Assembly (NCBI GenBank): GCA_017454265.1
Contig: JAFTDJ010000008.1
Coordinates: 1-36,009, forward strand
Direction of reading: 5' to 3'
Source of the DNA: Bacteroidales bacterium
GTDB taxonomy: Bacteria; Bacteroidota; Bacteroidia; Bacteroidales; UBA932
DNA length: 36,009 bases
In this document: positions 1,378 to 34,112 of the stretch, piece after piece
Layout: the number at the start of each line of letters is the position of its first letter
How positions within the stretch are numbered: position 1 is the stretch's first letter
Position numbers and translations under genes: made by a program
Notes under the pieces: model-generated
The model's input: the letters and a program-made list of their open reading frames with translations, nothing else
Database searches by the model: none
What the model was told of the DNA's origin: nothing

Positions 1378-3630
1378 TTACTTGACTGTAAACAGCACGC
1401 TGCGCGAAGCTCCGAGGGCGTCCACTACCGTGAGGACGTGCCGCCCCGGCGCGGGATGCACGAGCAGGTCGTGGTCGCCCCGGGTGCTGCCAAGGTATTC
1501 GTCGTCCAGATGCCAGTAGAGCACGGCTGAAGGGTCGCGATGGGCCGCCCGCACTACCATTCCCTGCTCGCGGCCGTCGAGCCCCACCGTGGTCACCACG
1601 GTAATGCCTTGCTGGGGATAGATGATTTCTATGGGGCTGGAGGCGTCTGATGCCGCATCGAAATCGGGATGCTTGGGCGGCAGCGGACGGTAGTCCATAT
1701 GGTTTTTCATGTAATACCATTCCATGGCCGGAGGCAGCACGAACCACACTTTCTCCACCATCTTCTCCACGGGATAACAGCTGCTGTTGACCAGCATGCG
1801 CTGTTCTGCATCCAGGTGAACGATGCGGTGGTAACGGCACTCGTCGGGACGGCCGGCGATGTCGGGCACCCATACGGTATCCCTCTCCGGACAGATGCGC
1901 GATGCGGGAAGGCCGCTTTGACGGCAGACCTCCAGCGGCACCATTTCGTCCAAAGGCATGCTGAACCAGCGGGAAGGAGGCAGCGCCGCAAAAACGTCGA
2001 ACATCACGGGGGCAGCATAGCCCACGCCTGTCATCTGCGCACGGCCCTCCCCGTCACTGTTGCCTACCCACACGCCTACAACGTAGTCCCGGGTGACTCC
2101 TACACTCCATGCATCGCGGTTGCCCCAGCTCGTACCGGTCTTCCAGGCTACCTTGCCCGAAGAACTGAAGTCCATCCAGCTCGATTCCTCCTCAGGCCTG
2201 GCGGCCTTGGAAAGAGCCTCGAATGTCAGCCAGATCACCGATCTGGTTAACGTGCGGGGGAGGGACAGTCCCGCCAAAGCGGCTGCGAGGTCCGTGTAAA
2301 CCCCGACGAGGTCTTCGAGGGTGATTTCGGCACCGCCGAGTATGAGGGAAAGGCCGTAATGGTCGGCGCTGCGGGTAATCGTGCTGAAGCCAAGGTCCTG
2401 GAGCAGCGACAGGAAACGCGGCGCGCCGTACTGTTCCAACATACGCACGGAGGGCACGTTGAGAGAGCGTGAAATCACTTCGGAAGCGGGAACGGCCCCG
2501 TCGAAGCTGCGGGAATGGTTGTGCGGAGCAAAGTTGTTGTAGTTATACGGCGTATCCTTTATGAGCGTGCCGGGCAGGATTTCCCCGTCCTGAAGCATTG
2601 CGGCGTAGAGCAGCGGCTTGAGCGTACTGCCGCTGGAGCGGGCCGCCGGAATCATGTCCACGTCTGCGCCGCGAAGTTCCGGGGCAAGCCCTCTGGTATT
2701 GCCGTAGTATGCCAGCACTTCCCCGCTATCAACGCTGCGCACCAATATTCCCATGTTGTCCACCAGGTTTCCGTGATACAGTTCGAACCAGGAGCGGGCA
2801 ATGGCGTTCACCCTGTCCTGCAGGGCAAGGTCCACGCTGCATACGTATTCCCTGTCGCCGCCTTGCGCCCTGAGCCGCTCCAGCAGGTGATATGCCTTGT
2901 CCGGCATCGGAATGGGCTTCTCCGGAAGCGGTTCGTCTTTTGCCAGAGCACATTCCAGTTCGTCTATAATTCCACCGGCGTAAAGCTTGTCCAGCAGATA
3001 GTTGCGCTTTTCCATCAAGCGCCCGCGGTTACGCCCCGGATGGATGAGGGCAGGGGCGTTGGGCAGGACGGCAAGCGTTGCGCTTTCAGCCCAGGAGAGC
3101 TGGTCTGCAGGCCTTCCGAAATAGCGCCAGGCAGCCGCTTCAAGCCCCACCACGTTTCCTCCGAACGGCGCGTTGGATGCATATAGCAGCAGTATTTCCT
3201 TTTTTCTGCAGCGCATTTCCAGACGGGTGGCCATAACGGCTTCCAGTAGTTTCTCGGGAACGGAGCGGGGGGCACCGGGGCGGCTGAGACGTATCACCTG
3301 CATAGTGATGGTGCTGGCGCCGCTCACCACTTCTCCGCTGCCCAGATTCTGCCTCAGCGCCCTTCCGGCAGACAGCAAATCAACCCCCGGATGCCACCAG
3401 AAGCGCTTGTCTTCGTAGCATACAATGCATTTGGCGAACTTCTCCGGCACAGTGCCGGATGCAGGAAAACGCCATTGCCCGTCGGCAGAAATACGCGCGC
3501 CCAAAAGCAAGCCGTCGCGGTCTTTGAGAACAGCACTGCAGGGTGTGTCGAAGAGTTTTCCCGGGAGGCAAAACAGATATAGTGCCAGCAGGGGCGCTAA
3601 AATCAAAATAATTTTTGTACTTTTGGACAT
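1378..3630 (-). CDS. pbpC: Penicillin-binding protein 1C (bifunctional peptidoglycan synthase)
   Basis: This 750-residue membrane-anchored protein polymerises and is predicted to cross-link peptidoglycan. An N-terminal membrane segment (about 5-22) precedes a GT51 glycosyltransferase domain whose motif EDKRFWWHPGVD begins at Glu73. The transpeptidase domain shows S335-T-L-K338, S389-L-N391 and K497-T-G499, so all three penicillin-binding motifs are intact. The last 100 or so residues match the beta-rich C-terminal extension (BiPBP_C) typical of PBP1C. It is divergent from an alpha-2-macroglobulin gene 24 nt away, the classic pbpC/yfhM pairing, in which the macroglobulin is thought to protect the periplasm when the wall is breached. 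A TATATTTG box ends 7 nt before the start codon, so the 5' leader is very short. Confidence 0.95.
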   Translation of the reverse strand: MSKSTKIILILAPLLALYLFCLPGKLFDTPCSAVLKDRDGLLLGARISADGQWRFPASGTVPEKFAKCIVCYEDKRFWWHPGVDLLSAGRALRQNLGSGEVVSGASTITMQVIRLSRPGAPRSVPEKLLEAVMATRLEMRCRKKEILLLYASNAPFGGNVVGLEAAAWRYFGRPADQLSWAESATLAVLPNAPALIHPGRNRGRLMEKRNYLLDKLYAGGIIDELECALAKDEPLPEKPIPMPDKAYHLLERLRAQGGDREYVCSVDLALQDRVNAIARSWFELYHGNLVDNMGILVRSVDSGEVLAYYGNTRGLAPELRGADVDMIPAARSSGSTLKPLLYAAMLQDGEILPGTLIKDTPYNYNNFAPHNHSRSFDGAVPASEVISRSLNVPSVRMLEQYGAPRFLSLLQDLGFSTITRSADHYGLSLILGGAEITLEDLVGVYTDLAAALAGLSLPRTLTRSVIWLTFEALSKAARPEEESSWMDFSSSGKVAWKTGTSWGNRDAWSVGVTRDYVVGVWVGNSDGEGRAQMTGVGYAAPVMFDVFAALPPSRWFSMPLDEMVPLEVCRQSGLPASRICPERDTVWVPDIAGRPDECRYHRIVHLDAEQRMLVNSSCYPVEKMVEKVWFVLPPAMEWYYMKNHMDYRPLPPKHPDFDAASDASSPIEIIYPQQGITVVTTVGLDGREQGMVVRAAHRDPSAVLYWHLDDEYLGSTRGDHDLLVHPAPGRHVLTVVDALGASRSVLFTVK
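3618..3625 (+). promoter_or_regulatory. -7 promoter element TACTTTTG of the alpha-2-macroglobulin gene
   Basis: This exact TAnnTTTG match ends 29 nt before the ATG at 3655. It lies partly within the first codons of pbpC, so the two divergent transcripts would overlap at their 5' ends. Confidence 0.55.
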
Positions 3631-3654: not shown

Positions 3655-6600
3655 ATGGAACTCTCCAAACTGTTCAGTTGCGTCCTTTTTGCGGCAGTTT
3701 TGCTAAGCGGATGCGGTCAGGAAAGCGAAAATACGGGCTCGAAAAACACCGACGACGCAGGTGGCGTCACCGTGGAGGAGCAGACTCCCCAGGAAGCGGG
3801 TTACCAAGTGTACACAGATCAGGATACGCCCGAAGCGGAGGCCCCTGAAGCTCCGGCGATACGCCTGCTGAGCAAGGGTTCCATACTGCCCAGCACGGGC
3901 AAAATGGACCTTCTGTTCAATTCCTACGGCTATGTCCAGGCTCGCGTCAGGGTACGCAAGGTGTTCACCAACAACATACTGCAGTTTATGCAGTACGACA
4001 CTTACGAAGCCCGGTACAACCTCTTCAAGGTAGCGCGCACGGTAGCGGACACCGTCCTGGTACTCGGCACGACTGACGCCCCGCACCTGCGTGAAGCCCG
4101 TAACTACGGAATCAGCCTGGACGAGCTCATAAAACCCGAACCGGGAGCCATCTATCACGTGGAAATCCGTGGTCTTGAGCCACTGGAAGAGGAGAGTTTC
4201 TGGGACAGCGACGCATACTTCGGCAACTATGAGACTTACGAGGAACGCAATACTTTCCTCCTGGCCAGCGACGTGGCCCTCATAGCCAAAGGCGGAGACA
4301 ACAAGTTCGACATCTATGCCTGCGACATACTCAGCGGCGAGCCCCTCAAGGGTGTGCGGGTAAAATTCTACGATGACGTCCTGCAGGAAACAGGCAAGGG
4401 TACTACAGACAGGGACGGCAGGATCAGCTTCCCCGCAGGCGAAGGCCGCTACATTGTAGCCAACTCCGACAAAGGCGCCGCATACCTGGCGCTGAAGAAC
4501 GAGAAGTCTCTGTCTACCAGCAATTTCGACGTAAGCGGCACTACCCGTGAAGGCGGCGTCAAGGCCTTCATCTTCGGTGAGCGGGGCGTATGGCGCCCGG
4601 GCGACGACATCCATATCACCGTAATCACCATGACCGAGGGCGACGAACTCCCTGCCGGACACCCTGTGGTAGCCGAGCTCCGCAACCCCGACGGGCAGGT
4701 CACCCAAACCCTCACCGCAAAGAACGACGGCAGCCATATCTGGCATTTCCCCTTCTCCACCAGCCAGGATGCGCCTACAGGCCGCTGGAGAGTAAGTGTC
4801 AAAGTTGGCGGACAGACCTTCTCCAAACCCGTAAAGATTGAAACGGTCAAGCCCAACAAGCTGGACATCAGCCTCGCCTTCAACGACGATATCCTCGTAC
4901 CAAAGAGCAGTTGCGTCGGTACTGTCACCGTAAAATGGCTCTACGGAGCTCCCGGAGACGGGCTTAAAGTAAACGGAGACATGGAGATGAGCAACGCAGC
5001 CACAAGTTTCAAGGGCTACGAAGCCTATGACTTCCGCGACGACTCCCGCTCTTTCAGCACCCAGACCCGCTATTACAACGATATGCTGACGGATGCGACC
5101 GGCAAGGCCACCATCACCACAAATATGAACTTGCGCGATGAAGGTATTCCCGGAATGCTGAACGTGAACTTCGTGTTGCGCGCCTTCGAGCCCTCCGGAG
5201 AATTCAGCACCGGTACGGTATCCTGCAAAATGTCTCCGTTCGACACTTACGTAGGCATGAAGGTACAGAAAGACCGCAGTTCCTGGGGTGAAGAGTATCT
5301 CAAGGCCGGCAAGGAGCACAAGTTCGACGTGGCTACCGTGGACTGCACAGGAGCCCCCGTATCCGTATCCGACCTTCACGTGGAGGTGTTTCACGTAGAT
5401 TGGAGCTGGTGGTGGAACTCCTCCAACCAGATTGCAAGCTATATGTCCGGAAACAGCAAGGAACTGCTGCTGGACAAGCATATCTCCACCCGCTCGGGAG
5501 CCGGTTCCTTCAGCTACGACTGGGCCGACGCGCCTGAGGGGCTTTACTTCATCCGCGTCAGCGACGAGAACGGCGGGCACGCAAGCTCCATGCTTTGCGA
5601 AGTATATGAGAACTACGGCGTCGGAGCCTCCGACTCCCAGGCCGCAGCCAGGCTGAGCATCAACGCCAACAAAGAAAACTACAAAGTTGGAGAGACCGCA
5701 AAGCTCACCATCCCCTCCTCCAAGGGCAGCCGGGCGCTGGTCTCCCTGGAAAAAGGCGGACGCATACTCAGTTCCGAATGGGTCGAGTGCGCCGGCGGCA
5801 GTACGGAAATCAAAGTCCCCGTAACCCGGGCGATGCTTCCCAACGTATATGCTTTCGTCACCCTGGTGCAGCCCCATGCCAACACGCTGAACGACGCCCC
5901 CTTGCGCCTTTACGGCGTTTGCAACCTCAACGTAACCGACGAGGCGTCTCACCTCTGGCCTGTACTGGATATTCCTTCCGAGGTGAAGCCCGAGACCGAA
6001 ATTTCCTTCAAGGTCAAGGAGAAAAACGGCAAGGCGATGAGCTATGTGGTCGCCCTCGTGGACGAGGGACTGCTCAACCTCACCGGCTTCAAAACACCCG
6101 ACGCCTGGAAGGCTTTCTACGCCAAGGAGGCTCTTCGGGTACGCACCTGGGACCTTTACGACGATGTGATCGGAGCTTACGGCGGCAAGATAGAGCAGCT
6201 GTTCGCCATCGGAGGTGACGAGGAAGGCGCCGCTGCGGTAATCAAGCCGCAGAACGCACAACGCTTCAAGCCTGTTGTCGCCTATCTGGGCCCCTACACC
6301 CTCAAAGCCGGTAAAACCGCCACGCTCAAAGCTTCCGTTCCACAGTACATCGGTTCCCTTCGCGCAATGGTGATAGCCACGGACGGTCACGCCCAGGGCA
6401 GCTGCGAGAGCAATGTAGCGGTAACCAAGCCGGTAATGGTGCAAGCCACGCTTCCAAGGGCCCTCAACACGGGAGAAAGCATCAGAGTGCCTGTAACCCT
6501 GCTTACGATGAAGGACGAAGTGGGCAAAGTGAAACTCGGCATCAGTACGTCAGACAACCTGCAGATCATCGGGCCTGCCACACAGACAGTGGAGTCAGGC

Positions 6601-8220
6601 AAGGCAGGGTCGGAGGTGTATTACTTTGACGTGAAGGTCGGTGACTCCACCGGCATAGCGAAGATCTGCGCCACTGCGGAAGCTGCAGGAGACAAGTCTG
6701 CGCACGACATCGAAATAGATATCCAGAACCCCAACCCCGAGGTGAGCCGCAGCAAGACCGTGCTGCTCGCAGCAGGCTCTTCACAGGAGATTGAGGCCGA
6801 GCTCTTCGGAATAGCCGGAACCAACTCCGCCACCCTGGAGCTGTCCACTATTCCAGCAATAGACCTCGGCTCCCGCGTGCGCTACCTTGTCAACTACCCC
6901 TACGGATGCCTGGAACAGACCGTATCTGCGGCATTCCCCCAGTTGTATCTGGACAAAATCAGCAATTTAGACGAAAACAAACTCAAGCGCAGCCGAATAA
7001 ACATAGAGGCGGCGATACGACGCCTGCAGAACTACCGCAGAAGCGACGGGTCGCTGAGCTACTGGCCCGGCCAGAACAGATCCTCGCTGTTTGGCAGCGC
7101 CTACGCCCTGCATTTCCTCAAGGAAGCCGAGGATCAGGGATATGCAGTGCCCGTCGAACTCAAGAAAGAACTCATCGCCTGGCTGGGCAAGGCGGTATCC
7201 GACAAACGCGAAGACTTCACTTCCCGCGCTTACGGCGTTTATTCTCTGGCGGCCGCAGGCAAACCTCAGCGCAGCGCAATGAACCTGCTGCGCGAGAATG
7301 TCAAAAAGATGCCCGCCAGCGCATCCTGGCTGCTTGCAGCCGCCTATGCAGTGGACGGAAAGAAAAACGTTGCGCGCGAACTTGCCGCTCCGCTTAAATA
7401 CGAAGACACGTTCTATGAGGCCTACGGCAGTTCCGACCGCAACCGCGCCGTGGCGCTCAAGACAATGCTGCTCACCGATCGCAAGGAAGACGCCTTCCGG
7501 CTTGCTTCCGAGATTGCCTCCCGCCTGAACGACAAAGACTGCTATATGAGCACCCAGTCTACCGCCTGGAGCCTCTACGCCATCTGCGATTATGCACGCG
7601 CCAATGCGGGCGGAGTTCAGGGATCCTGGACTGCCGGCGGCAAGGGCGGCAAGGTTAACGGCAGCAAGTGCATCGAGACCGTAGAACTGCCCGTCGGAGA
7701 CGGCACCGGCAAGTTCCCCGTCAAGGTAAAGAACAGCGGCAAGGGTGAACTCTATGCTGTAGTTTCCGTGAACGGCATACCTGCTGCATCTACAGAAAAG
7801 GCCGTGAGCAACAAACTCAGGATGACTGTGAGCTATCAGGACGAAAGCCGCAGGCCCGTCAAGGTGGACACCCTTTCCAGGGGGCGCACGGTATATGCCG
7901 TAGTCACAGTAACCAATCCCGGATCCGCAGCGGTCAAAGACCTGGCACTCAACCACAAATTCCCGTCGGGATGGGAGATTCAGAACGAGCGGCTGTATTC
8001 CCAAGCCGCTTCCTACCCTGCCGGTGTGAACTATCAGGACATACGCGACGACCGCGTTTACAGTTTCTTCGACCTGGCTGCCGGAGCGAGCGTTGTGGTG
8101 CGCACCAAAATAATTGCAACTTACCCGGGACGCTTCTACCTGCCGGCCGTGAGCTGCGGCGCCATGTATGACGCCACCGTAGAGGCCGTAGTTCCCGGAT
8201 ACTGGGTGGAGGTGAAGTAA
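3655..8220 (+). CDS. Alpha-2-macroglobulin family lipoprotein (thioester protease trap)
   Basis: At 1521 residues this has the usual length of bacterial alpha-2-macroglobulins of the YfhM type. The signal peptide ends in a lipobox (LLSGC, Cys20), so it is an envelope lipoprotein. An MG2-like motif (GERGVWRPGDD) lies near residue 310, and the thioester motif C-L-E-Q is intact at 1085-1088, followed by the alpha/alpha-toroid thioester domain and a C-terminal beta domain. The family entraps attacking proteases: cleavage of a bait region triggers a conformational change, and the thioester acylates the protease. The bait region cannot be defined from sequence. It is divergent from pbpC and ends 1 nt before a transporter gene. 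The minus strand is also open over long stretches here, but that is a codon-bias shadow. Confidence 0.93.
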   Translation: MELSKLFSCVLFAAVLLSGCGQESENTGSKNTDDAGGVTVEEQTPQEAGYQVYTDQDTPEAEAPEAPAIRLLSKGSILPSTGKMDLLFNSYGYVQARVRVRKVFTNNILQFMQYDTYEARYNLFKVARTVADTVLVLGTTDAPHLREARNYGISLDELIKPEPGAIYHVEIRGLEPLEEESFWDSDAYFGNYETYEERNTFLLASDVALIAKGGDNKFDIYACDILSGEPLKGVRVKFYDDVLQETGKGTTDRDGRISFPAGEGRYIVANSDKGAAYLALKNEKSLSTSNFDVSGTTREGGVKAFIFGERGVWRPGDDIHITVITMTEGDELPAGHPVVAELRNPDGQVTQTLTAKNDGSHIWHFPFSTSQDAPTGRWRVSVKVGGQTFSKPVKIETVKPNKLDISLAFNDDILVPKSSCVGTVTVKWLYGAPGDGLKVNGDMEMSNAATSFKGYEAYDFRDDSRSFSTQTRYYNDMLTDATGKATITTNMNLRDEGIPGMLNVNFVLRAFEPSGEFSTGTVSCKMSPFDTYVGMKVQKDRSSWGEEYLKAGKEHKFDVATVDCTGAPVSVSDLHVEVFHVDWSWWWNSSNQIASYMSGNSKELLLDKHISTRSGAGSFSYDWADAPEGLYFIRVSDENGGHASSMLCEVYENYGVGASDSQAAARLSINANKENYKVGETAKLTIPSSKGSRALVSLEKGGRILSSEWVECAGGSTEIKVPVTRAMLPNVYAFVTLVQPHANTLNDAPLRLYGVCNLNVTDEASHLWPVLDIPSEVKPETEISFKVKEKNGKAMSYVVALVDEGLLNLTGFKTPDAWKAFYAKEALRVRTWDLYDDVIGAYGGKIEQLFAIGGDEEGAAAVIKPQNAQRFKPVVAYLGPYTLKAGKTATLKASVPQYIGSLRAMVIATDGHAQGSCESNVAVTKPVMVQATLPRALNTGESIRVPVTLLTMKDEVGKVKLGISTSDNLQIIGPATQTVESGKAGSEVYYFDVKVGDSTGIAKICATAEAAGDKSAHDIEIDIQNPNPEVSRSKTVLLAAGSSQEIEAELFGIAGTNSATLELSTIPAIDLGSRVRYLVNYPYGCLEQTVSAAFPQLYLDKISNLDENKLKRSRINIEAAIRRLQNYRRSDGSLSYWPGQNRSSLFGSAYALHFLKEAEDQGYAVPVELKKELIAWLGKAVSDKREDFTSRAYGVYSLAAAGKPQRSAMNLLRENVKKMPASASWLLAAAYAVDGKKNVARELAAPLKYEDTFYEAYGSSDRNRAVALKTMLLTDRKEDAFRLASEIASRLNDKDCYMSTQSTAWSLYAICDYARANAGGVQGSWTAGGKGGKVNGSKCIETVELPVGDGTGKFPVKVKNSGKGELYAVVSVNGIPAASTEKAVSNKLRMTVSYQDESRRPVKVDTLSRGRTVYAVVTVTNPGSAAVKDLALNHKFPSGWEIQNERLYSQAASYPAGVNYQDIRDDRVYSFFDLAAGASVVVRTKIIATYPGRFYLPAVSCGAMYDATVEAVVPGYWVEVK

Positions 8221-26272: not shown

Positions 26273-27517
26273 TCACTTGCAGCATCCAAGAAATAGAATA
26301 CTGCCAGTAGTCTTTTCTACAACGGCAAACAGGAAAGGCCTGTCGCAATGGAAATCAATCACGCTTCCATCACCTGTATTGCCGGTATCACGATAAGTAT
26401 AAGAAACGGCAGCCGCTTCCGTACCGCCTTCGTTTACGGAGATATTGGCAATATGCTTGATGCCGCTGATTTCAAATTTCGAATCCGACATTAAAGAAAA
26501 ATCTGCATGCTCGCCGAAAAGATGCCGTATGCCCACGGTTTGCAAAGATTCCTTCATGTCGAAAGCGGTATTGATTTCGAATTTGGGAAGCCACAGATTA
26601 ACGCGGGAAGACTTTAACCGGGAATACATCTCAGCCCATTTCACACCATCAAGAGACGACAGGACCTGCTTTGTGGAGACACCCTCATCAGGAAGAATCA
26701 GCGCCATCTCAAAAAACTTCGAATACGGAACGGTCAGGGTGCTATAAGTACTTGATTTGCAATAAGCAAAAGCGTCTGTTGCACTCATCATGCTCACCAT
26801 ACGGTCGCCGAAGAGCGCGTCCCTTGTCGCGGCCTCCGCAAAAGGAGCTTTCCAAAAACCTTTGAAATACAATGCATTCAAGAAAATAGCAAATGAGGAC
26901 GGATCGACAGTATCCAGAATATGTGATATCCTGCTATGAGTTTTTTGATGTACCCAGTCGTTAATATATGCGGGGATATTTTCTGCCGAAAAACTTTTAC
27001 TGGCTATCTCGGCGCCATAACTCTCCTTGATACTGTTCCTGTAATTCTCTTTGATGGCAAATGCATTGTCTATTACAGCCAGGTCTGCTATTTCCAGGAC
27101 GTCTTTATCTGATTCTGAATGAACGCAATAATTCATTAAATCACTGCAAAAGGCGTTCAGTTGCTGCTGACCGGCAGCATCGTAACCCAAAGCATTCAGG
27201 ATTTCTGCCCGGGTCTCGCCAGCAGCCCCCTCAGACAGCATTCCTAGCAAATAGGCGACGCTGACAGGAGAGAAGACATACCCATCATCCGCGAAATCGT
27301 TATTCTTTGCCAAGTTAAAGGCAAAAGTATTGATTTTTGCCAGCTGAATCTGCTCTGTGGAAGTCAAGACAGACTCTGCATCATAGACCAGATTATTATA
27401 ATCCGGGGCGGAGTAATCTTCTGTTGTAGAATCCCCTGTGATTCGGGCTTCGTTGCACCCTAAAGCGCACAATGCAACAGAGAATAAAATTACACATTTA
27501 AATAATCTCGAATCCAT
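26273..27517 (-). CDS. Serpin lipoprotein (protease inhibitor), paired with the C10 peptidase upstream
   Basis: The 414-residue protein starts MDSRLFKCVILFSVALCALGC, a lipoprotein signal, then a full serpin fold. Typical signatures are VFSPVSVAYLLGMLSEGAAG (residues 80-100), FLNALYFKGFWKAPF and the C-terminal DRPFLFAVVEKTTGSILFLG. The hinge GTEAAAVS begins at about Gly365, matching inhibitory serpins (small residues at P15-P9), so it should be able to trap proteases. Standard counting puts P1 near residue 379, in the segment YRDTGNTGDG, but the loop is longer than in animal serpins, so P1 is uncertain. The start at 27517 lies 20 nt inside the end of the C10 peptidase gene, so the two are translationally coupled. 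Known Bacteroidota serpins such as miropin inhibit serine and cysteine proteases. Confidence 0.92.
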   Translation of the reverse strand: MDSRLFKCVILFSVALCALGCNEARITGDSTTEDYSAPDYNNLVYDAESVLTSTEQIQLAKINTFAFNLAKNNDFADDGYVFSPVSVAYLLGMLSEGAAGETRAEILNALGYDAAGQQQLNAFCSDLMNYCVHSESDKDVLEIADLAVIDNAFAIKENYRNSIKESYGAEIASKSFSAENIPAYINDWVHQKTHSRISHILDTVDPSSFAIFLNALYFKGFWKAPFAEAATRDALFGDRMVSMMSATDAFAYCKSSTYSTLTVPYSKFFEMALILPDEGVSTKQVLSSLDGVKWAEMYSRLKSSRVNLWLPKFEINTAFDMKESLQTVGIRHLFGEHADFSLMSDSKFEISGIKHIANISVNEGGTEAAAVSYTYRDTGNTGDGSVIDFHCDRPFLFAVVEKTTGSILFLGCCK

Positions 27518-28880
27518 ATACCAGATAACGTTTAGATGAATAATTACTATAATGATCAAGTGTCACCACCCAGCTAGTGAATAGATTATACCAAATTGTA
27601 GAACCATTTATAGAGTCACCTTTCCCATTATACCCCCAATTAACCGCCACAAAAGTCGAATTCTCATTTTGATAAGAATATGAAACATGGTCGGGTAATT
27701 GACCAGGTTGAATAATCCCATCAAGCCCTGTAAAATAATACTCTGTTGTCGTACGTATGGAGATATTTCGATAATTATACCCATCAACGACTACACAATG
27801 GCCAGATGAATTGTCTTGATAAGCCAATGACATTATAACCGGAAGTTGGTTCTCATATATCTGTTCTTCAAAAATAGTCGCCATGTCATCAATTGGCTCA
27901 TTGCTCAAAAGAAGATTATACCCTTGACACGAAATACCATAATTCGGGAAAACAGAAACAGCATCAGAAGTATAAGCATAAGTTCCATCAGCATAGTAAT
28001 CAGCTTGATATAAACAACCAAGATGCACCATTAGCGTAGAAACACTACCTGCACCATAAACCACGGTGCTATCCAAAGGCATATCATCCCATACATCTTC
28101 TGATTCGTTAAGAAATACAACATTTCCAGGGCACGTAAGATTTACGTAACTGTTGTTCGGAGCATATGCTACCGTATATGCATTACTGAACGATGAAGAC
28201 GGGACATCCCATAAACTATGCAAATAATATAGTACCTGCGCTGAAGCAACCGGGACGCACCCAGTCTCACACCTACTGGATAAGGTATAATCCGTGAATG
28301 GTGCATATTGGTTCCAGGGACTCCGAAGTCCCCACTTTGTACTCATAAGATGGTCTTGATATCTTACATCATAAAGAAGGGTATCAACAGTACGGACTCT
28401 TACGATAGTAACATCAATAGAATCAACTCGTGACCTGTTTCTCCAAGAGTCAGAAAAAAACTCAGGAGATGTAAAGTGACTGTCGTTGATTATATCTGAC
28501 ATACCTGAACATAATTTGCTAAAAAAGTCCGAGCTTGCCAGATTTGAATATAAATCGCGTACAGAAATATTACCGGTTTCTCCATAGGCGAAAACCCTGG
28601 GCACTCTGAGATCTGCAGACAACAATTCCCAGCCATTATCATAATTTGCTAAATACATTACTGTATCTCCAGCTTCGATTATAGGTTCAACTGAAATGCT
28701 ATTGGCTTTTGTTGGGGGTAATTGTTTGATAGTCTGAAAATAGTCTAGCAAATCTGCTTTTGTCACCCTATTTGAAATACTGACGCCGGTCTTCTCAAAA
28801 GCATAATTATAAAGATGGTCCTGCTTAGAGCAAGATACTAAAACCAGGATCACAACAATTATGATTGAAATTTTCGACAT
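27498..28880 (-). CDS. C10-family (SpeB/streptopain-like) cysteine peptidase lipoprotein
   Basis: The 460-residue protein has a lipoprotein signal (MSKISIIIVVILVLVSC, Cys17), a SpeB-type inhibitory propeptide (about 35-100, VMYLANYDNGWELLSAD), and a C10 catalytic domain. Catalytic Cys208 lies in ETGCVPVASAQ and His361 in SSGHCVVVDGY; the NWGYNG motif at 414-419 supplies the conserved Asn/Trp region. It should be made as an inactive precursor and matured by removal of the propeptide. The start at 28880 is chosen for the signal peptide; a TACCTTTG box ends 9 nt upstream, so it has its own promoter besides any readthrough from the serpin gene before it. The serpin gene that follows starts inside its 3' end. 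Confidence 0.92.
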   Translation of the reverse strand: MSKISIIIVVILVLVSCSKQDHLYNYAFEKTGVSISNRVTKADLLDYFQTIKQLPPTKANSISVEPIIEAGDTVMYLANYDNGWELLSADLRVPRVFAYGETGNISVRDLYSNLASSDFFSKLCSGMSDIINDSHFTSPEFFSDSWRNRSRVDSIDVTIVRVRTVDTLLYDVRYQDHLMSTKWGLRSPWNQYAPFTDYTLSSRCETGCVPVASAQVLYYLHSLWDVPSSSFSNAYTVAYAPNNSYVNLTCPGNVVFLNESEDVWDDMPLDSTVVYGAGSVSTLMVHLGCLYQADYYADGTYAYTSDAVSVFPNYGISCQGYNLLLSNEPIDDMATIFEEQIYENQLPVIMSLAYQDNSSGHCVVVDGYNYRNISIRTTTEYYFTGLDGIIQPGQLPDHVSYSYQNENSTFVAVNWGYNGKGDSINGSTIWYNLFTSWVVTLDHYSNYSSKRYLVYGFEII

Positions 28881-28889
28881 CGCTAAAAG

Positions 28890-28897
28890 CAAAGGTA
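28890..28897 (-). promoter_or_regulatory. -7 promoter element TACCTTTG of the second C10 peptidase
   Basis: An exact TAnnTTTG match on the minus strand, 9 nt before the ATG at 28880, in the 44-nt gap after the upstream serpin. Confidence 0.5.
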
Positions 28898-28924
28898 AAA
28901 AAATATGAATGGAAATATAGTATA

Positions 28925-30268
28925 CTACTTATAGCTCCCGAGGAAGAGAATTGCACCTGTGGAATTCTGTCGGATAATGTAAATAAACGGCCTGTTGCAA
29001 GTGAAGTAAACCGGTGCGTCGGGATCGTTCTCGTAATAATTGCCTGCCGGAAACTCATAAGAAATGGCTGCTGCCTCGGCACCGGATTCGTCAAAACTGA
29101 TCTTGGCTAGTTGCTCTATATTCACAGTATCGTAGCTTCTAGTCGTCATATTCGACAAGTCGGGTGATGAAAACAGAGCATTTATCCCCAGGGCCGGGAG
29201 TATGTCGTTGTAATTGACCCTGGTTGAGGCAACAAATTTCGGCATGCTCAGGATAACATATCTGTAAGTGGTGTTGTCCAGCGCTTCAGAGAATTCTTTT
29301 TCGTTAAGACTCTTAATGAGATAGTCTGCGCCATTATTAGTTGGCGGAAGCAGTATGTCCAATTCAAAGTCTCCCGCCTTTGGAGCTGAACCGGGAGCAA
29401 GGAACGAGCCAAATGGGTATCGCACCAGCTTAAATCTGCCGGTTTCGGTATATCGAACGTAGGGCTTGTCCATAGATTTCATCATCTGGACCTTTTTGGT
29501 CCGTCCGTCAGGCATCTTGAAATCTGAAGGAGAGGCCGGATTGAACGGAAATTCCCATACAGCATTGAAATATAGCGAGTTCAGAATGATGTTGTCTATG
29601 CCGTCCGGAAACTGATCGAACACTTTTTCGATAACACCGCGGGTCTGTTTTTTTGCCCATCCATTAATGAATAGAGCTATATCTTCATTGGCAAAGTCTT
29701 TATTGAAAACTAATGCGTCGTAATAATTCTTTACTTGCTTTTTATAACTTTCGAGCATAGGGAAGCTATTGTCTGCCACGACAATGTTGGCAAAATCCAG
29801 GGCTTCTCCATCCATGATGCCTTTTTTGGAAACGGCTATAAAATCCCGGAAAAACCGGTTTACTTCTGCCTGCTCATTTCTTTTCATATTCAGGGCAGCA
29901 CATATTTCATTGCGTGTTTCTCCTGCAGAGCCGGAAGACACCATCCCAAGCAATATGGACATACTGATGGGAGAAAAAACAAAACCTTCGTCTGAAGCAA
30001 TTATACCCGCAATATCAAATGCAAAGTCATTAAGCCCGGAAACCAGCTTATTGTCCGGCTCGGAAAGACTGGAAGGAGCGCCTTCAGCCAAAAAAGAATA
30101 ATCGGAGCTATACTCGCCGTCGGTATCCGTGGTTTCTCCAGGCGTATCAGGGAGATCTGAGGGCACCTCGTTCTCTACGCCGATAAGTTCCATCTTAATG
30201 CCATCACAAGAAGACAGTGCAAATAAAGACAGCACTAAAATTGCAATATTTAAAACTATTCCTTTCAT
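28925..30268 (-). CDS. Serpin lipoprotein (second paralogue)
   Basis: The 447-residue protein has a lipoprotein signal (LFALSSC, Cys21), an acidic, Pro/Thr-rich linker (about 28-65) that may hold the domain away from the membrane, and a serpin fold with FVFSPISMSILLGMVSSGSA and ILNSLYFNAVWEFPF. The hinge GAEAAAIS starts at Gly396, compatible with an inhibitory serpin. By standard counting P1 is near Asn410 in PAGNYYEND, different from the other serpin of the cluster, so the two are likely to have different targets; the extended loop makes the exact P1 uncertain. It starts 21 nt after the interrupted C10 gene with no promoter box of its own, so it probably depends on that gene's transcript. 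Confidence 0.92.
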   Translation of the reverse strand: MKGIVLNIAILVLSLFALSSCDGIKMELIGVENEVPSDLPDTPGETTDTDGEYSSDYSFLAEGAPSSLSEPDNKLVSGLNDFAFDIAGIIASDEGFVFSPISMSILLGMVSSGSAGETRNEICAALNMKRNEQAEVNRFFRDFIAVSKKGIMDGEALDFANIVVADNSFPMLESYKKQVKNYYDALVFNKDFANEDIALFINGWAKKQTRGVIEKVFDQFPDGIDNIILNSLYFNAVWEFPFNPASPSDFKMPDGRTKKVQMMKSMDKPYVRYTETGRFKLVRYPFGSFLAPGSAPKAGDFELDILLPPTNNGADYLIKSLNEKEFSEALDNTTYRYVILSMPKFVASTRVNYNDILPALGINALFSSPDLSNMTTRSYDTVNIEQLAKISFDESGAEAAAISYEFPAGNYYENDPDAPVYFTCNRPFIYIIRQNSTGAILFLGSYK

Positions 30269-30289
30269 AAGTCTGACAATTTATGAGCG

Positions 30290-31699
30290 TTAATATGTTA
30301 AACCGTGAATAATAGAGCGGGGAGAATAATCGTAAGTTAAACCAAGAAGCCAATTATTGTAGACGTTGTACCAAATGGGTGAATTAAGAATGCTGTCATA
30401 AAGGCCGTTCCACCCCCAGTTGATTGCTACATACCGCTGCTCTTCAAATTGGTTTCCTGCGACAATCTTTGTTTCTATTGGTTCAAAACCAGGAACAACA
30501 ACACCATTTTCATCGACAAAATATAGGCCATACTGGGCATCTTCACGGTATTTTTGGTATGAATAGCCGTCAATAACTGCCACGTGACCACTCAAACTAC
30601 CTGTAACTGTATTATCGCACAATAATGACACGATTATTGGTAATTCGTCCGAATAAACATCTTGTTCGCAAGCTGATATGAGTGCTTGTGTATTATTAAC
30701 TATGCTTGTTGTCTGACCGGTGATTTAAAAAAGGGATAAAAGTGACGGAATCATACCAAACCATCCAGTCGCGGCGCCTTGCCTGCGAAAAACGGCATGA
30801 TGTTTATGGCCCAGATATAGTAGGAAAGCCCCAACATTTTCTATTCCTGTGCTGTCACTCGAGGTAAGCGCCAAACTATCCCAGTTATCTTCAGAAATAT
30901 CGTAGAAACTAACATCACCGTCTAGTAAGACCATACCAGGTTCATTGGAAGGAACATAAGCGCTACATGCGGCATCGGAGCAAATCCCGACAGGCATCTC
31001 GTAAACATCATGAAGGTACTTGAGAGTTTGACCTACCGCAACCATCACGCAACCGCTAAAACAATGAGTAGTCAAAGTTGAATCAGTATACGGAGAGTAC
31101 TGATTCCACGGTGGGTCCATACCCCAATGAGTTTCGAGGAGATGGTTTTGTACTCTATTTTCTACTAGTGTCATTACTGAGTGCTCAAATACCCATGCAA
31201 GATGGGTAAGAATAACAGTGTCTCTGTTTGATGTTGCATCAATCCACGAATCAGAGATACCATCAGGAGGTGTTATTCTACTATCGTTTTTCAGATTGAG
31301 TAATCCGTCTGAAAGTTTGTTAAACAGCTCATCACTTTTAGCATTATTCTTGAGATTTGATACTGTTGTATTGCCATCATCGCTCTTTATCAATACTCGT
31401 GGTGCTCTCCTGTCTGCAGACAAAAGTTCCCATCCCTTTTCATAATTCACCAGAAACATAACAGTGTCAGAACCATTCAAGACCGGCTGTATTGAAATAG
31501 TTTGACTTTTCGTTGAAGGGATGCATTTAACGTTGTAGAGGTAGTCATTAATATCGGATATACGTACACTATATTCATTGCTCTTTTCAGAACCGAGAAG
31601 AGGACTACTACAATCATATTTTTTGCACGAAGCGAAGGCAGCCAGGAAAACAGCTGAAAGCACAAATGATCTTCTAATAAACAAAGCTGGTAAACTCAT
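30290..31699 (-). pseudogene. C10-family cysteine peptidase interrupted by one in-frame stop codon
   Basis: A single reading frame of 469 codons encodes a lipoprotein signal (MSLPALFIRRSFVLSAVFLA, then AFASC, Cys25), a SpeB propeptide (about 45-105, MFLVNYEKGWELLSADRR), catalytic Cys217 (FSGCVMVAVGQ), His372 (LSGHVAVIDGY) and Asn427 (INWGWNG). Codon 325 (30727-30725) is TAA, between the Cys and His halves, in the context CTTTTTTAAATC. Both parts stay in the same frame and align along their length with the intact paralogue at 27498-28880, so this is a substitution rather than an indel. As written, the peptide would lack the His and be inactive; readthrough or recent nonsense mutation are the alternatives. 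It heads the peptidase/serpin array. Confidence 0.85.
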
Positions 31700-31729
31700 G
31701 TCGCAAAATAATAAAAAAAACAATAAAAG

Positions 31730-31737
31730 CAAAACTA
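31730..31737 (-). promoter_or_regulatory. -7 promoter element TAGTTTTG in front of the interrupted C10 gene
   Basis: An exact TAnnTTTG match on the minus strand, 30 nt before the ATG at 31699, in the 93-nt gap after the small exported protein gene. Confidence 0.45.
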
Positions 31738-31792
31738 CAATAATACTTAGACACAGGCTCTACTGAACTTAAATGAAAGGTTACAACGTGTG

Positions 31793-32170
31793 TCACCAAA
31801 ATGCAAATTCACCATAATACACTGCTCCATACGGCAGTGTGATTTGCACAGTATAATCGCCGGAACTCGATAAAGACAAACCGTCAGGGATTGATGATAT
31901 ATACACCTCCTCATTACTAATTTCACCGGTACTCGTATTTACCAGAACAACATCGGCCTCAGTAACAATTGTGTTGGACGTAAAGAAAATACTGTTAGCA
32001 GATCTAATTACAAAGCATTGGACAGGTACGTGCGAAGGAGCGTGCGGGATAGTCCCTGGCGGAGGTGTAGGACCATAGAGCGGAACGTCATCAACAATCT
32101 GTCTGGAAGCGGTAAGGCAGAGTGAAAAGAGTGAAAGGAGTAAAATGACGGATTTCTGTAAAGAATTCAT
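31793..32170 (-). CDS. Small exported protein, DUF3244-like
   Basis: The 125-residue protein has a signal peptide (MNSLQKSVILLLSLFSLCLT), a Pro-rich stretch (YGPTPPPGTIPHAP) and a C-terminal beta-sandwich-like domain (about 50-125) with the pattern VVLVNTSTGEISNEEVYI and GDYTVQITLPYGAVYYGEF. This resembles the small exported DUF3244 proteins of Bacteroidales, which are of unknown function; the resemblance is by pattern only. The start at 32170 is chosen for the signal peptide and a TACTTTTG box 26 nt upstream; longer in-frame starts would place non-signal sequence in front. It is first in the minus-strand array of peptidases and serpins, so it may be an accessory partner of that module. Confidence 0.7.
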   Translation of the reverse strand: MNSLQKSVILLLSLFSLCLTASRQIVDDVPLYGPTPPPGTIPHAPSHVPVQCFVIRSANSIFFTSNTIVTEADVVLVNTSTGEISNEEVYISSIPDGLSLSSSGDYTVQITLPYGAVYYGEFAFW

Positions 32171-32204: not shown

Positions 32205-32409
32205 AAGAAAATATTGGCCCGGACATATCTGAAACTAAAATTTGATGTTGCAAGAAGAGTTCTCAGGTAAAAGGCTATATAGCTGTAAATCAAGCAAATA
32301 AAAAAAATCGTTGATAATCGCCCCATCCTGTTCAAAAACCTACAACACGCTCATAATGAGACATTTACCCTAATGCAACAAAAAATAGATTGTCCTCCGG
32401 TTCCCCATC

Positions 32410-32441
32410 TTGTCAACATGCAGGCATTTTTGCTACTTTTG
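32410..32441 (+). promoter_or_regulatory. Promoter of the TPR-HTH regulator (TTG, 21-nt spacer, TACTTTTG)
   Basis: TTG at 32410-32412 and TACTTTTG at 32434-32441 are 21 nt apart, close to the spacing of the Bacteroidota housekeeping promoter. Only 3 nt separate the -7 box from the ATG at 32445, so the transcript should be leaderless or almost so. Confidence 0.55.
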
Positions 32442-32444
32442 CAT

Positions 32445-34112
32445 ATGAAAAATCAATATCCACTAATAGCCTTTTTCTTGCTGGTGGTGTCATCTTGCAA
32501 CAACTACAATAACGCCCTGCTAGCTGACGCATCATCTGTTTTGGATACCCGGCCAGACAGCGCGTTGTTGATTATCTCGAAGGTTGATACCTCAAAGTTC
32601 CACAGCTCAAAACAATTCGCAAAGTACGAATTGCTAAAGGCTATGGCAATAGACAAGTGCTACATTGACACTACCGACATATCGATAATGGCACACGCAC
32701 AGCACTATTACCAAAACCACGGGGAGAGAAAGGACAGGATGCTGTCTCGCTACTATTATGGCAGGCTGCTGTATAATTCCAACAGTATGGACAATGCGCT
32801 GGAATACTTTCTGGACGCTCTCAACTATTCCGACGAAAATGACCCCAAGATGATGGGGATGATACATGCTCTGTTATCTGCTGTGTATAGAAACAATTAT
32901 GACTCTGGCAATGAGCTGAAGCATCAAGAAAAGGCTCTGGACTATTTTAGCAAGTTCGGAAATCCCCTTTACATTGAGCAGGCAACACTAAATTTGGGCA
33001 GTGCATTCCACAATAACCGTTTTTTTGACAAAGCGGACAGCCTGTATTCCTTAATTCCTGAGAGCAGCCCATATTATAAGGCTACAGTACTTGAACGGGC
33101 TTTTAACAAAATCACAGATGACTTGCGAGACCCATCAAACGTACACGATGCAATTGGTTATTTTGAAGAGGCAGAGCATCTGGAAGTAGTCTTTCCATAC
33201 GAGAATATGTATCAATTCGCCCTCGCATTGAATCTTTCCGGCAATTCAGCCAGATCTGAGAGCATAATAAAGCGCTTCAGAATTGAGCCCTCAGAATGCA
33301 ATGTGAACGAAGCGTATTGGCTTTACCGGTACTTCACGGCAGTTGGTAACAAAAGCAAAGCATTTGACTATTTTGAAGCTTATGCAACCAAACGTGAGGA
33401 AACCGTAAAAAAGCAGTTGACACAGTCTCTACAAAAAACCGAGGCGAATTATTACCGTAAACAAACCGAACTTTCAAAGTTAAATGAGAAAAGGACCAGG
33501 AATCAATTGATTGGAGCAGGAATAATTGCAATCATCTTCTTTTTCGTTGTAATAATTGTGACGCAACGCCAAAAGATTAAAATTCAGAAAGAGCGCTCCG
33601 AAGTGTTAGCCAGATTAAATGAAACTCAAAGACTACTGGCTCTCTACAAGACACAAGAAGACGAACTGCAAGAAACCCACGATTCCATTATGAAACTTCA
33701 AGTGGCGTTTACACACATATATAAGCGGCAGTTTGTCAGAATTGGCAGACTCTATAACACAAACCTGGTTTTCTCCATGCAAACTGACCCGGGCAAGGAA
33801 GAGTATGTCAATATGGTCTCTTCGATACTTTCCGAGATAGAATCTGCCGAAAAAGGCAGTCACATATTCGAAGCCAGAATCGACAAGGACCTTGATAACA
33901 TAATGACTAAACTCAGAAGTGATTTCCCCGAATATACTGAGGACCAGTACCGGTTGTTATGCTATGTGATAGCCGGTTTCACAGACGCAAGCATAGCTAC
34001 AATTATGAACGAGAACAACAATACCATACGCTCCCGAAAGTCGCGACTGAAGAAGGAAATATTCAGCAGAACGACTCCCAACTCAAGCCTCTACCGTGCT
34101 TTTTTGACATAA
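32445..34112 (+). CDS. TPR / transmembrane / HTH regulator lipoprotein-type protein
   Basis: The 555-residue protein starts with a lipoprotein-like signal (MKNQYPLIAFFLLVVSSC, Cys18). A periplasmic TPR-like helical region (about 25-335) is followed by one membrane helix (about 352-373), a coiled coil (about 374-420) and a C-terminal helix-turn-helix (about 498-538, DQYRLLCYVIAGFTDASIAT and NNTIRSRKSRLKKEI) resembling LuxR or sigma region 4 type HTHs. This architecture is a Bacteroidota class of membrane-bound transcription regulators that read an envelope signal. It is divergent from the peptidase/serpin array across a 274-nt gap, so it is a good candidate for controlling that array. If Cys18 is lipidated, the protein would be tethered at both ends. 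Confidence 0.82.
   Translation: MKNQYPLIAFFLLVVSSCNNYNNALLADASSVLDTRPDSALLIISKVDTSKFHSSKQFAKYELLKAMAIDKCYIDTTDISIMAHAQHYYQNHGERKDRMLSRYYYGRLLYNSNSMDNALEYFLDALNYSDENDPKMMGMIHALLSAVYRNNYDSGNELKHQEKALDYFSKFGNPLYIEQATLNLGSAFHNNRFFDKADSLYSLIPESSPYYKATVLERAFNKITDDLRDPSNVHDAIGYFEEAEHLEVVFPYENMYQFALALNLSGNSARSESIIKRFRIEPSECNVNEAYWLYRYFTAVGNKSKAFDYFEAYATKREETVKKQLTQSLQKTEANYYRKQTELSKLNEKRTRNQLIGAGIIAIIFFFVVIIVTQRQKIKIQKERSEVLARLNETQRLLALYKTQEDELQETHDSIMKLQVAFTHIYKRQFVRIGRLYNTNLVFSMQTDPGKEEYVNMVSSILSEIESAEKGSHIFEARIDKDLDNIMTKLRSDFPEYTEDQYRLLCYVIAGFTDASIATIMNENNNTIRSRKSRLKKEIFSRTTPNSSLYRAFLT

Follow-up and report, generated by a model that had tools for sequence, protein, structure and literature searches.

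Serpin genes directly follow C10 cysteine peptidase genes in some Bacteroidales: a possible protease-inhibitor operon

In the window, i.e. the whole stretch of 36,009 nucleotides of Bacteroidales DNA that has been analysed, two C10 cysteine peptidase genes are each directly followed by a serpin gene; this pairing is more than a local accident, since a third C10-serpin pair is present in the same genome and the arrangement recurs at 20/80 and 9/12 C10 genes in relatives. The repeated order of C10 and then serpin, in uncultured gut-type bacteria, suggests at the level of sequence that these bacteria keep a protease of their own in check, and we read the locus, tentatively and with close to even confidence, as a protease-inhibitor operon in which a serpin would serve as the cross-class inhibitor. 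A recent survey calls what serpins do in many prokaryotes enigmatic (PMC8233489); a serpin gene that is repeatedly tied to one protease class provides a concrete, testable target. The pairing adds a further kind of candidate inhibitor to those encoded next to C10 enzymes, to whose family SpeB belongs, and it suggests that bacterial operons have put the serpin trap to new use across protease classes.

The ORF listing, the strand read and the Pfam matches give, on the minus strand, the order DUF3244-like gene, interrupted C10 peptidase, serpin, intact C10 peptidase, serpin, which bears out the five-gene order, with its interrupted first C10 gene, that had been proposed in the preliminary description. 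The features of the locus are the following:

32373..34112, plus strand: TPR/HTH regulator-like protein, divergent from the operon, with a weak BT3442-family match
31793..32170, minus strand: DUF3244-like small secreted protein of 125 aa, start ATG at 32170, without a lipobox; candidate C10 inhibitor of the btiZ type
30725..31699, minus strand: interrupted C10 peptidase, N-terminal piece with signal, prodomain region and catalytic Cys, ended by an in-frame TAA
30290..30631, minus strand: interrupted C10 peptidase, C-terminal piece with the catalytic His, located after the stop in an unchanged frame
28925..30268, minus strand: predicted lipoprotein serpin of 447 aa; Pfam Serpin E 8.5e-72, hinge ESGAEAAAI
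27498..28880, minus strand: intact C10 peptidase, predicted lipoprotein, with catalytic Cys and His; Peptidase_C10 E 1.4e-21
26273..27517, minus strand: predicted lipoprotein serpin of 414 aa; Pfam Serpin E 5.2e-83, hinge EGGTEAAAV

The DUF3244-like gene is separated from the interrupted C10 gene by 93 nt, the interrupted C10 gene from its serpin by 21 nt, and this serpin from the intact C10 gene by 44 nt; the second serpin overlaps its C10 gene by exactly 20 nt (the serpin ATG is at 27517 and the stop codon of the C10 gene ends at 27498), as had been described earlier. With the 21-nt gap and the 20-nt overlap, both serpins show the spacing of the btp-bti type, i.e. the same strand and a few tens of bp. 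Lipoprotein signals had also been attributed to the four peptidases and serpins and, in a pattern reading by eye, a lipobox-like Cys closes the N-terminal signal in 4/4. The promoter scan gives 24 promoter-like sites versus 16.5 (sd 4.3) in shuffled sequence, the terminator scan gives terminators no different from shuffled sequence, and the Rfam search gives no match.

The intact C10 gene occupies an ORF at 27498-28892, with the likely start at the ATG at 28880; its product scores 78.1 bits against the Peptidase_C10 profile (cut-off 26), matches interpain A (PDB ID:3bba, E 1.7e-07), and is linked by profile match with streptopain, the Inhibitor_I69 profile of the N-terminal prodomain reaching 21.4 bits, under its 25-bit cut-off. 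The interrupted gene consists of two same-frame open stretches (30725-31732 and 30290-30631) that are separated by one TAA at 30725, a single stop that is likewise counted by the whole-genome search, and its pieces score 26.3 and 24.2 bits against the Peptidase_C10 profile (cut-off 26). With the catalytic Cys upstream of the stop and the catalytic His downstream, the gene as read cannot yield an active enzyme. The serpin behind this broken gene is still present in the window. That serpin-linked C10 genes are more often broken has been considered and rejected, at 3/23 linked genes (the window, L009 and L252) versus 2 or 3 among the approximately 62 remaining genes (L206, L230 and perhaps L250), the C10 genes of L229 and L254 being single ORFs; it is possible that an assembly error lies behind every broken C10 gene.

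The preliminary description had placed a full serpin in the position of the small inhibitors of Bacteroides C10 peptidases, which it took to be propeptide-like; these small partners are described as staphostatin-like (PMC2873492, PMC3462683), and the serpin is no plain substitute for the small inhibitor, since the operon begins with a gene that belongs, on its sequence, with the btiZ-type DUF3244 proteins. A btiZ-kind protein still heads the operon, and a plain replacement is rejected for the first unit; no small gene belongs to the second, intact C10. Taken alone, the DUF3244-like protein has a weak Pfam DUF3244 match (E 0.042 and 0.017, below cut-off); it aligns with 17 similar small secreted proteins from C10 loci, and its size fits the 116-138 aa range of btp-bti-type partners. 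BtiZ is BT2221 (PMC3462683), which is entered as a DUF3244 domain protein (PMC10434189), and the DUF3244-like protein is probably a second inhibitor of this kind.

Conservation of the C10-serpin adjacency in relatives had been named beforehand as a check, its absence being one half of the stated refutation, and the adjacency does recur in the same genus, in another genus of the family and in a second family. A same-strand serpin lies directly downstream of the C10 gene in 20 of the 80 loci of this C10 subfamily (15 genomes, two genera) and, in the second family, which was sampled separately, directly after 9 of the 12 C10 genes. Behind other C10 genes, a serpin is found at 0/41 control loci in which 500 nt or more of downstream sequence is visible (20/80 versus 0/41, Fisher p 0.00015), and at none of the 14/59 with at least 1000 nt. 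The control set comprises 59 C10 loci, 30 of them the best Pfam hits within the family and 29 from an order-wide profile search; at least 500 nt downstream is visible in 41/59 after extending the sequence for 14 loci (34/59 before). Chance adjacency is rejected by these counts. The catalytic Cys is kept in 21/22, and the catalytic His in 19/20, of the serpin-linked C10 rows that have a letter there. One control locus (L133) scores with the subfamily, its partner being a non-serpin, and an order-wide search that started from a more distant C10 gave 1/295 genomes.

Recruitment has been repeated: on well-supported branches, the C10-serpin link changes at least 10 times on the C10 tree and at least 6 times on the serpin tree, and the trees, as inferred from these sequences, need the link to have been gained or lost several times. 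In one genome (G266), two C10 genes that are 24% identical are each followed by a serpin, and those serpins are 75% identical; in the genome of the window, the paired C10s form one supported group, and so do the paired serpins. Recent local duplication as the sole cause has been rejected, as the window serpins are 34% identical and the links are spread over both trees. The median terminal branch is 1.04 for linked versus 0.21 for unlinked serpins, a difference to which sampling may contribute, the unlinked ones being mostly best-scoring hits. In a mirror-tree comparison of 31 pairs, the distances of paired C10s and serpins correlate with r 0.40, a value reached by 0/2000 shuffles, for which shared ancestry alone could suffice.

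Both window serpins match the Pfam profile over its full length (279.7 and 242.8 bits, cut-off 27), and the best bacterial structure among the matches listed (60 of 179) is that of miropin (PDB ID:5ncs, E 1.7e-81; PMC8233489). The P17-P9 hinge is of the inhibitory type (ExGTEAAAA) in both; EGGTEAAAV fits the strict hinge pattern, while ESGAEAAAI, with A at P14 and I at P9, fails it. The strict motif occurs in 7/22 linked versus 54/64 unlinked serpins; the hinge is worn in many of the linked serpins, and in several it is unlike that of inhibitors. At the canonical P1 position the window serpins carry G and N, for which no clear match to C10 is evident, and no C10 cleavage site is readable from the reactive loops.

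We infer that each pair is co-transcribed, lipidated and located at the envelope and, above all, that the serpin inhibits its cognate C10. Each C10 peptidase would be exported as a lipoprotein zymogen, made together with the lipoprotein serpin that is encoded right behind it; the serpin would most likely be tethered to the membrane and work once only, trapping C10 that is stray or active too early at the producer's own envelope, where the C10 would cut the reactive loop, the loop would insert, and the acyl-enzyme would be stuck. Counting for this protease-inhibitor reading are the adjacency counts with their empty control, the repeated changes on both trees and the two pairs of G266, the catalytic residues of the linked C10s, the hinges of the window serpins, the downstream slot, which is the position of btiA and btiB behind C10 genes of B. 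thetaiotaomicron (PMC3462683), and the existence of cross-class serpins in bacteria (C. thermocellum serpin 1270 inhibits papain, and miropin inhibits gingipain K; PMC8201313). Counting against it are the worn hinges, the P1 residues, the small candidate inhibitor already in the first unit, the other genes that fill the slot elsewhere, and the capacity of C10 enzymes to destroy serpins, as periodontain, itself a C10, cleaves alpha-1-proteinase inhibitor (PMC2873492). A bolder version, possible in our view but doubtful, is that the serpins are exchangeable immunity proteins, captured repeatedly from the genome's stock and fast-diverging, that become cognate cross-class guards of surface C10; if true, bacterial serpins would gain a defined target in their own cell.

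A serious rival, which we nevertheless consider rather unlikely, is a division of labour: the C10 would attack proteins outside, the serpin would guard the producing cell or its C10 against proteases of the host or of competitors, and the operon would be shared from simultaneous need, not because either inhibits the other. Tannerella miropin inhibits both host and P. gingivalis proteases (PMC8201313, PMC7296668), many serpins stand alone (57/60 serpin loci have no C10 within 1.5 kb flanks, the exceptions being L072, i.e. the window, L079 and L032), and a guard directed outwards could persist, as the window serpin does, behind a broken C10; what such a guard leaves unexplained is that serpins join this C10 subfamily and were absent behind the other C10 genes examined. 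The canonical P1 residues of the three linked serpins of the window's own genome, G, N and D, also speak against it. Such residues are atypical for trypsin, elastase or chymotrypsin targets, although bacterial serpins can use bonds other than the canonical P1.

It seems improbable to us that the C10 subfamily merely heads a cassette with a surface protein as its variable third gene, the serpin being a passenger with an unrelated role. The slot is indeed common to eleven other partner clusters of at least two loci, plus singletons (some maybe spurious ORFs); at most of the other 60 loci it is filled by other genes, some of them non-inhibitor-like (e.g. DUF4249 and weakly matched beta-barrel proteins), and only one of 19 non-serpin partners from relatives is above the Pfam cut-off (DUF4249). 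With 20 loci, however, the serpin cluster exceeds every other partner cluster (the second in size has 10); the serpin has been repeatedly gained or lost, and it is the usual partner in the second family. That the serpin is a substrate, which the C10 would switch off by cleavage or convert to a conformation with a non-inhibitory role, is highly improbable: serpin cleavage by C10 enzymes is on record (PMC2873492) and the hinges of several linked serpins are not those of inhibitors, whereas the window serpins keep the inhibitory type.

As in Bfp/Bfi of Bacteroides fragilis and Btp/Bti of B. thetaiotaomicron, the C10 enzymes here are predicted lipoproteins with a tightly spaced secreted partner and an upstream DUF3244 gene, but the partner there has 116-138 aa, while the downstream partner here, a serpin, exceeds 400 aa. 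Miropin is likewise a serpin of the Bacteroidota, for which we know of no protease gene partner. KLIKK proteases belong to families other than C10, and in the KLIKK-potempin pairs the inhibitor is small and its gene comes first, whereas here the protease is a C10 and the serpin comes after. The likeness to these pairs of Tannerella forsythia lies in an operon that joins a secreted protease with a specific lipoprotein inhibitor (PMC7296668, where potempin inhibition of KLIKK proteases is cited as unpublished). SpeB/Spi and staphopain/staphostatin similarly have an inhibitor gene beside that of a papain-like protease (PMC2873492, PMC3462683); neither inhibitor is a serpin, Spi being analogous to a propeptide and the staphostatins lipocalin-like, and their presumed place of action is the cytoplasm. 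No report of C10-serpin pairing was found in the literature searched, and the word serpin is absent from the text of both Bacteroides C10 papers (PMC2873492, PMC3462683).

The product of the divergent gene matches NCBIfam BT3442_fam (E 2.1e-19) at 69.7 bits, far below the cut-off of 940; its homologs occur in 24/80 C10 loci, and it is a possible regulator of the operon.

The C10 peptidase gene and the serpin gene directly behind it are a real, recurrent gene pair, and two such pairs are found in the window, a single contig (C54) from a 1.94-Mb draft genome (70 contigs, 75.65% complete):

32170-31793, minus strand: DUF3244-like gene (weak DUF3244 match on its own)
31699-30725 and 30631-30290, minus strand: interrupted C10 peptidase, with one in-frame TAA between the two pieces
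30268-28925, minus strand: first serpin (strong profile assignment)
28880-27498, minus strand: intact C10 peptidase (strong profile assignment)
27517-26273, minus strand: second serpin (strong profile assignment)

From the DUF3244-like gene to the last serpin, the spacings are 93, 21, 44 and minus 20 nt. Against solved structures, the intact C10 alone finds interpain A as its only relative, and a profile of 11 of its relatives finds streptopain and interpain A; the window serpins match many solved serpins, with the synthetic conserpin ranking highest, followed by miropin (among the best 60 of 179 listed). Elsewhere in the window, next to the gene of a PBP1C-type penicillin-binding protein (1378-3630, minus strand), there is a gene (3655-8220, plus strand) for a bacterial alpha-2-macroglobulin, also a protease trap of broad range.

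A Pfam search of the whole source genome gives four serpins and four C10 genes, three of each being paired: two pairs are located in the window and one on contig C60, where the C10 is broken as well, into two frames. The fourth serpin (contig C3) has no adjoining C10, the fourth C10 (contig C18) is followed by another lipoprotein gene, and a subfamily profile search adds a weak C10 fragment on contig C1. The three paired C10s form one group in the C10 tree, as do the three paired serpins in the serpin tree, each with 99% SH-aLRT.

The preliminary description had read these genes as protease-inhibitor modules whose adjacency should recur in relatives, and the adjacency does prove to be conserved in relatives, both in the main subfamily and in a second family. 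For the former, profiles were run against 151 genomes from the genus and 299 from the family. Among the matches listed, we retrieved 80 C10 loci together with flanks of at most about 4 kb: 60 are family matches, almost all ranking in the upper part of that list, and 20 are genus matches, weaker genus matches and fragments being left out. With adjacency defined as a serpin on the same strand that starts at most 90 nt past the C10 end or overlaps it, a serpin is directly downstream in 20 of the 80 loci, from 15 genomes and two genera. Placed outside this count are loci with a serpin directly upstream (L205), downstream at about 0.5 kb with a gene in between (L235), about 2 kb downstream (L228) or about 3 kb upstream (L203), and one with a partial serpin about 1 kb downstream (L236); no downstream gene was found in L197, L250 and L255, the last of which stops at a contig edge. 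Chance would give about 0.1 in 80, our own estimate, not a computed value, from the few serpins among about 2000 genes. Among the control loci (other C10 loci outside this sample), none of the 41 whose visible downstream sequence reaches 500 nt has a directly downstream serpin (Fisher p 0.00015 in comparison with 20 of 80, kinship disregarded). After a recount, there is no excess of broken C10 genes among the serpin-linked ones.

The non-serpin partners in the downstream slot fall into eleven clusters of at least two loci, plus singletons: the partner is a DUF4249 lipoprotein in L220 (Pfam, above cut-off), a beta-barrel-like protein in L198 and L267 (weak matches), and in further loci a lipoprotein without a Pfam match. 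One lipoprotein family of about 250-320 residues, several members of which carry a PGEC-like motif, occupies the slot in L191, L194, L195, L259, L260, L262 and others; Pfam gives no match for four members or likely members. DUF4249-like lipoproteins, Pfam-tested in L220, follow the C10 in L219, L220, L234, L266, L268 and perhaps L215 and L233, and several of these loci additionally hold a receptor-like gene.

The second family was reached by a scan of named genomes, which gave two relatives: L271 (red deer MAG contig CAJODR010000026.1) is identical to the query from genome G266, i.e. the same record, while L272 (JAAVDD010000029.1, labelled Bacteroides sp. MAG) carries a C10 gene with a lipoprotein serpin gene 70 nt behind it. 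A search of 149 genomes of the family of the L272 genome gave 11 C10 matches in 8 genomes, and one further C10 was located beside a serpin; a serpin follows 9 of these 12 C10 genes, all three misses being in genome G850. Because the twelfth C10 was found from its serpin, the stricter count is 8 of 11, or 7 of 10 once the L272 gene is also excluded. Contig C34 of genome G808 repeats the order of the window: a regulator-like gene (E 2.2e-15), a small DUF3244-like gene (E 0.00025, weak), a C10 and a serpin.

The history of the link was followed on quick trees with several long branches. On the C10 tree (86 rows, including pieces of broken genes and both pieces of one gene, with L255 scored unlinked), the link label requires 11 changes, at least 10 of them forced by well-supported branches; on the serpin tree (87 serpins) it requires 11, at least 6 forced. 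When the second family is added, the figures are 12 and at least 8. Under label shuffling, about 20 to 27 changes are required, which indicates that part of the link has been inherited as well. The clearest case of capture is G266, whose two C10s are 24% identical and their serpins 75% identical.

By our own reading, 18 of the 80 loci encode a small secreted DUF3244-like protein immediately upstream of the C10 gene (size and signal picked out 25 loci of relatives, from which visual inspection removed seven); 4 of the 20 serpin-linked loci are among them. A profile from an alignment of the window protein with 17 of these 18 finds such a gene, at any position, in 21 of the 80 loci, and finds it in no control C10 locus (59) and no serpin locus (60), both of these sets having shorter flanks. 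Homologs of the regulator-like gene (32373-34112, plus strand) occur in 24 of the 80, many being loci of the DUF3244-C10 cassette, and likewise in none of the 59 and 60. In B. thetaiotaomicron, btiZ is BT2221, which lies upstream of a C10 gene at a distance of 14 bp (PMC3462683) and is listed as a DUF3244 domain protein (PMC10434189); by this analogy, the first gene of the window would be a candidate inhibitor of the btiZ type. Demonstrated inhibition was not found in the accessible text of the literature on Bti proteins.

Both window serpins have a hinge of the inhibitory type. A strict hinge is present in 7 of 22 linked versus 54 of 64 unlinked serpins (one cut-off serpin dropped), so classical inhibition may not apply to some of the linked serpins. 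The canonical P1 residues (G and N in the window serpins, D in the C60 serpin) do not point to trypsin, elastase or chymotrypsin as targets; bacterial serpins can use bonds other than the canonical P1, as reported for miropin (PMC8201313). In the C10 alignment, 8 of the 62 rows that are not serpin-linked lack the catalytic Cys in its column, as does 1 of the 22 serpin-linked rows; this absence is reminiscent of BtpZ of B. thetaiotaomicron.

Among the papers listed by a search covering few subscription journals, there was no published report of a C10-serpin (or streptopain-serpin) pairing, and the accessible part of one paper (PMC8861167) names serpins solely as predicted serine protease inhibitors. 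The locus is best read as a protease-inhibitor operon of a known kind whose partner slot holds an inhibitor class that we did not find reported there; its mechanism is inferred.

Some serpins have other neighbours. Lone serpins in L010, L035, L037, L040, L073 and L074 share a convergent neighbour gene that by eye resembles one for a C69 dipeptidase; in L032, L088, L091, L093, L098 and L100, the serpin comes after a gene whose product, of about 400 residues, appears by eye to be outer membrane barrel-like.
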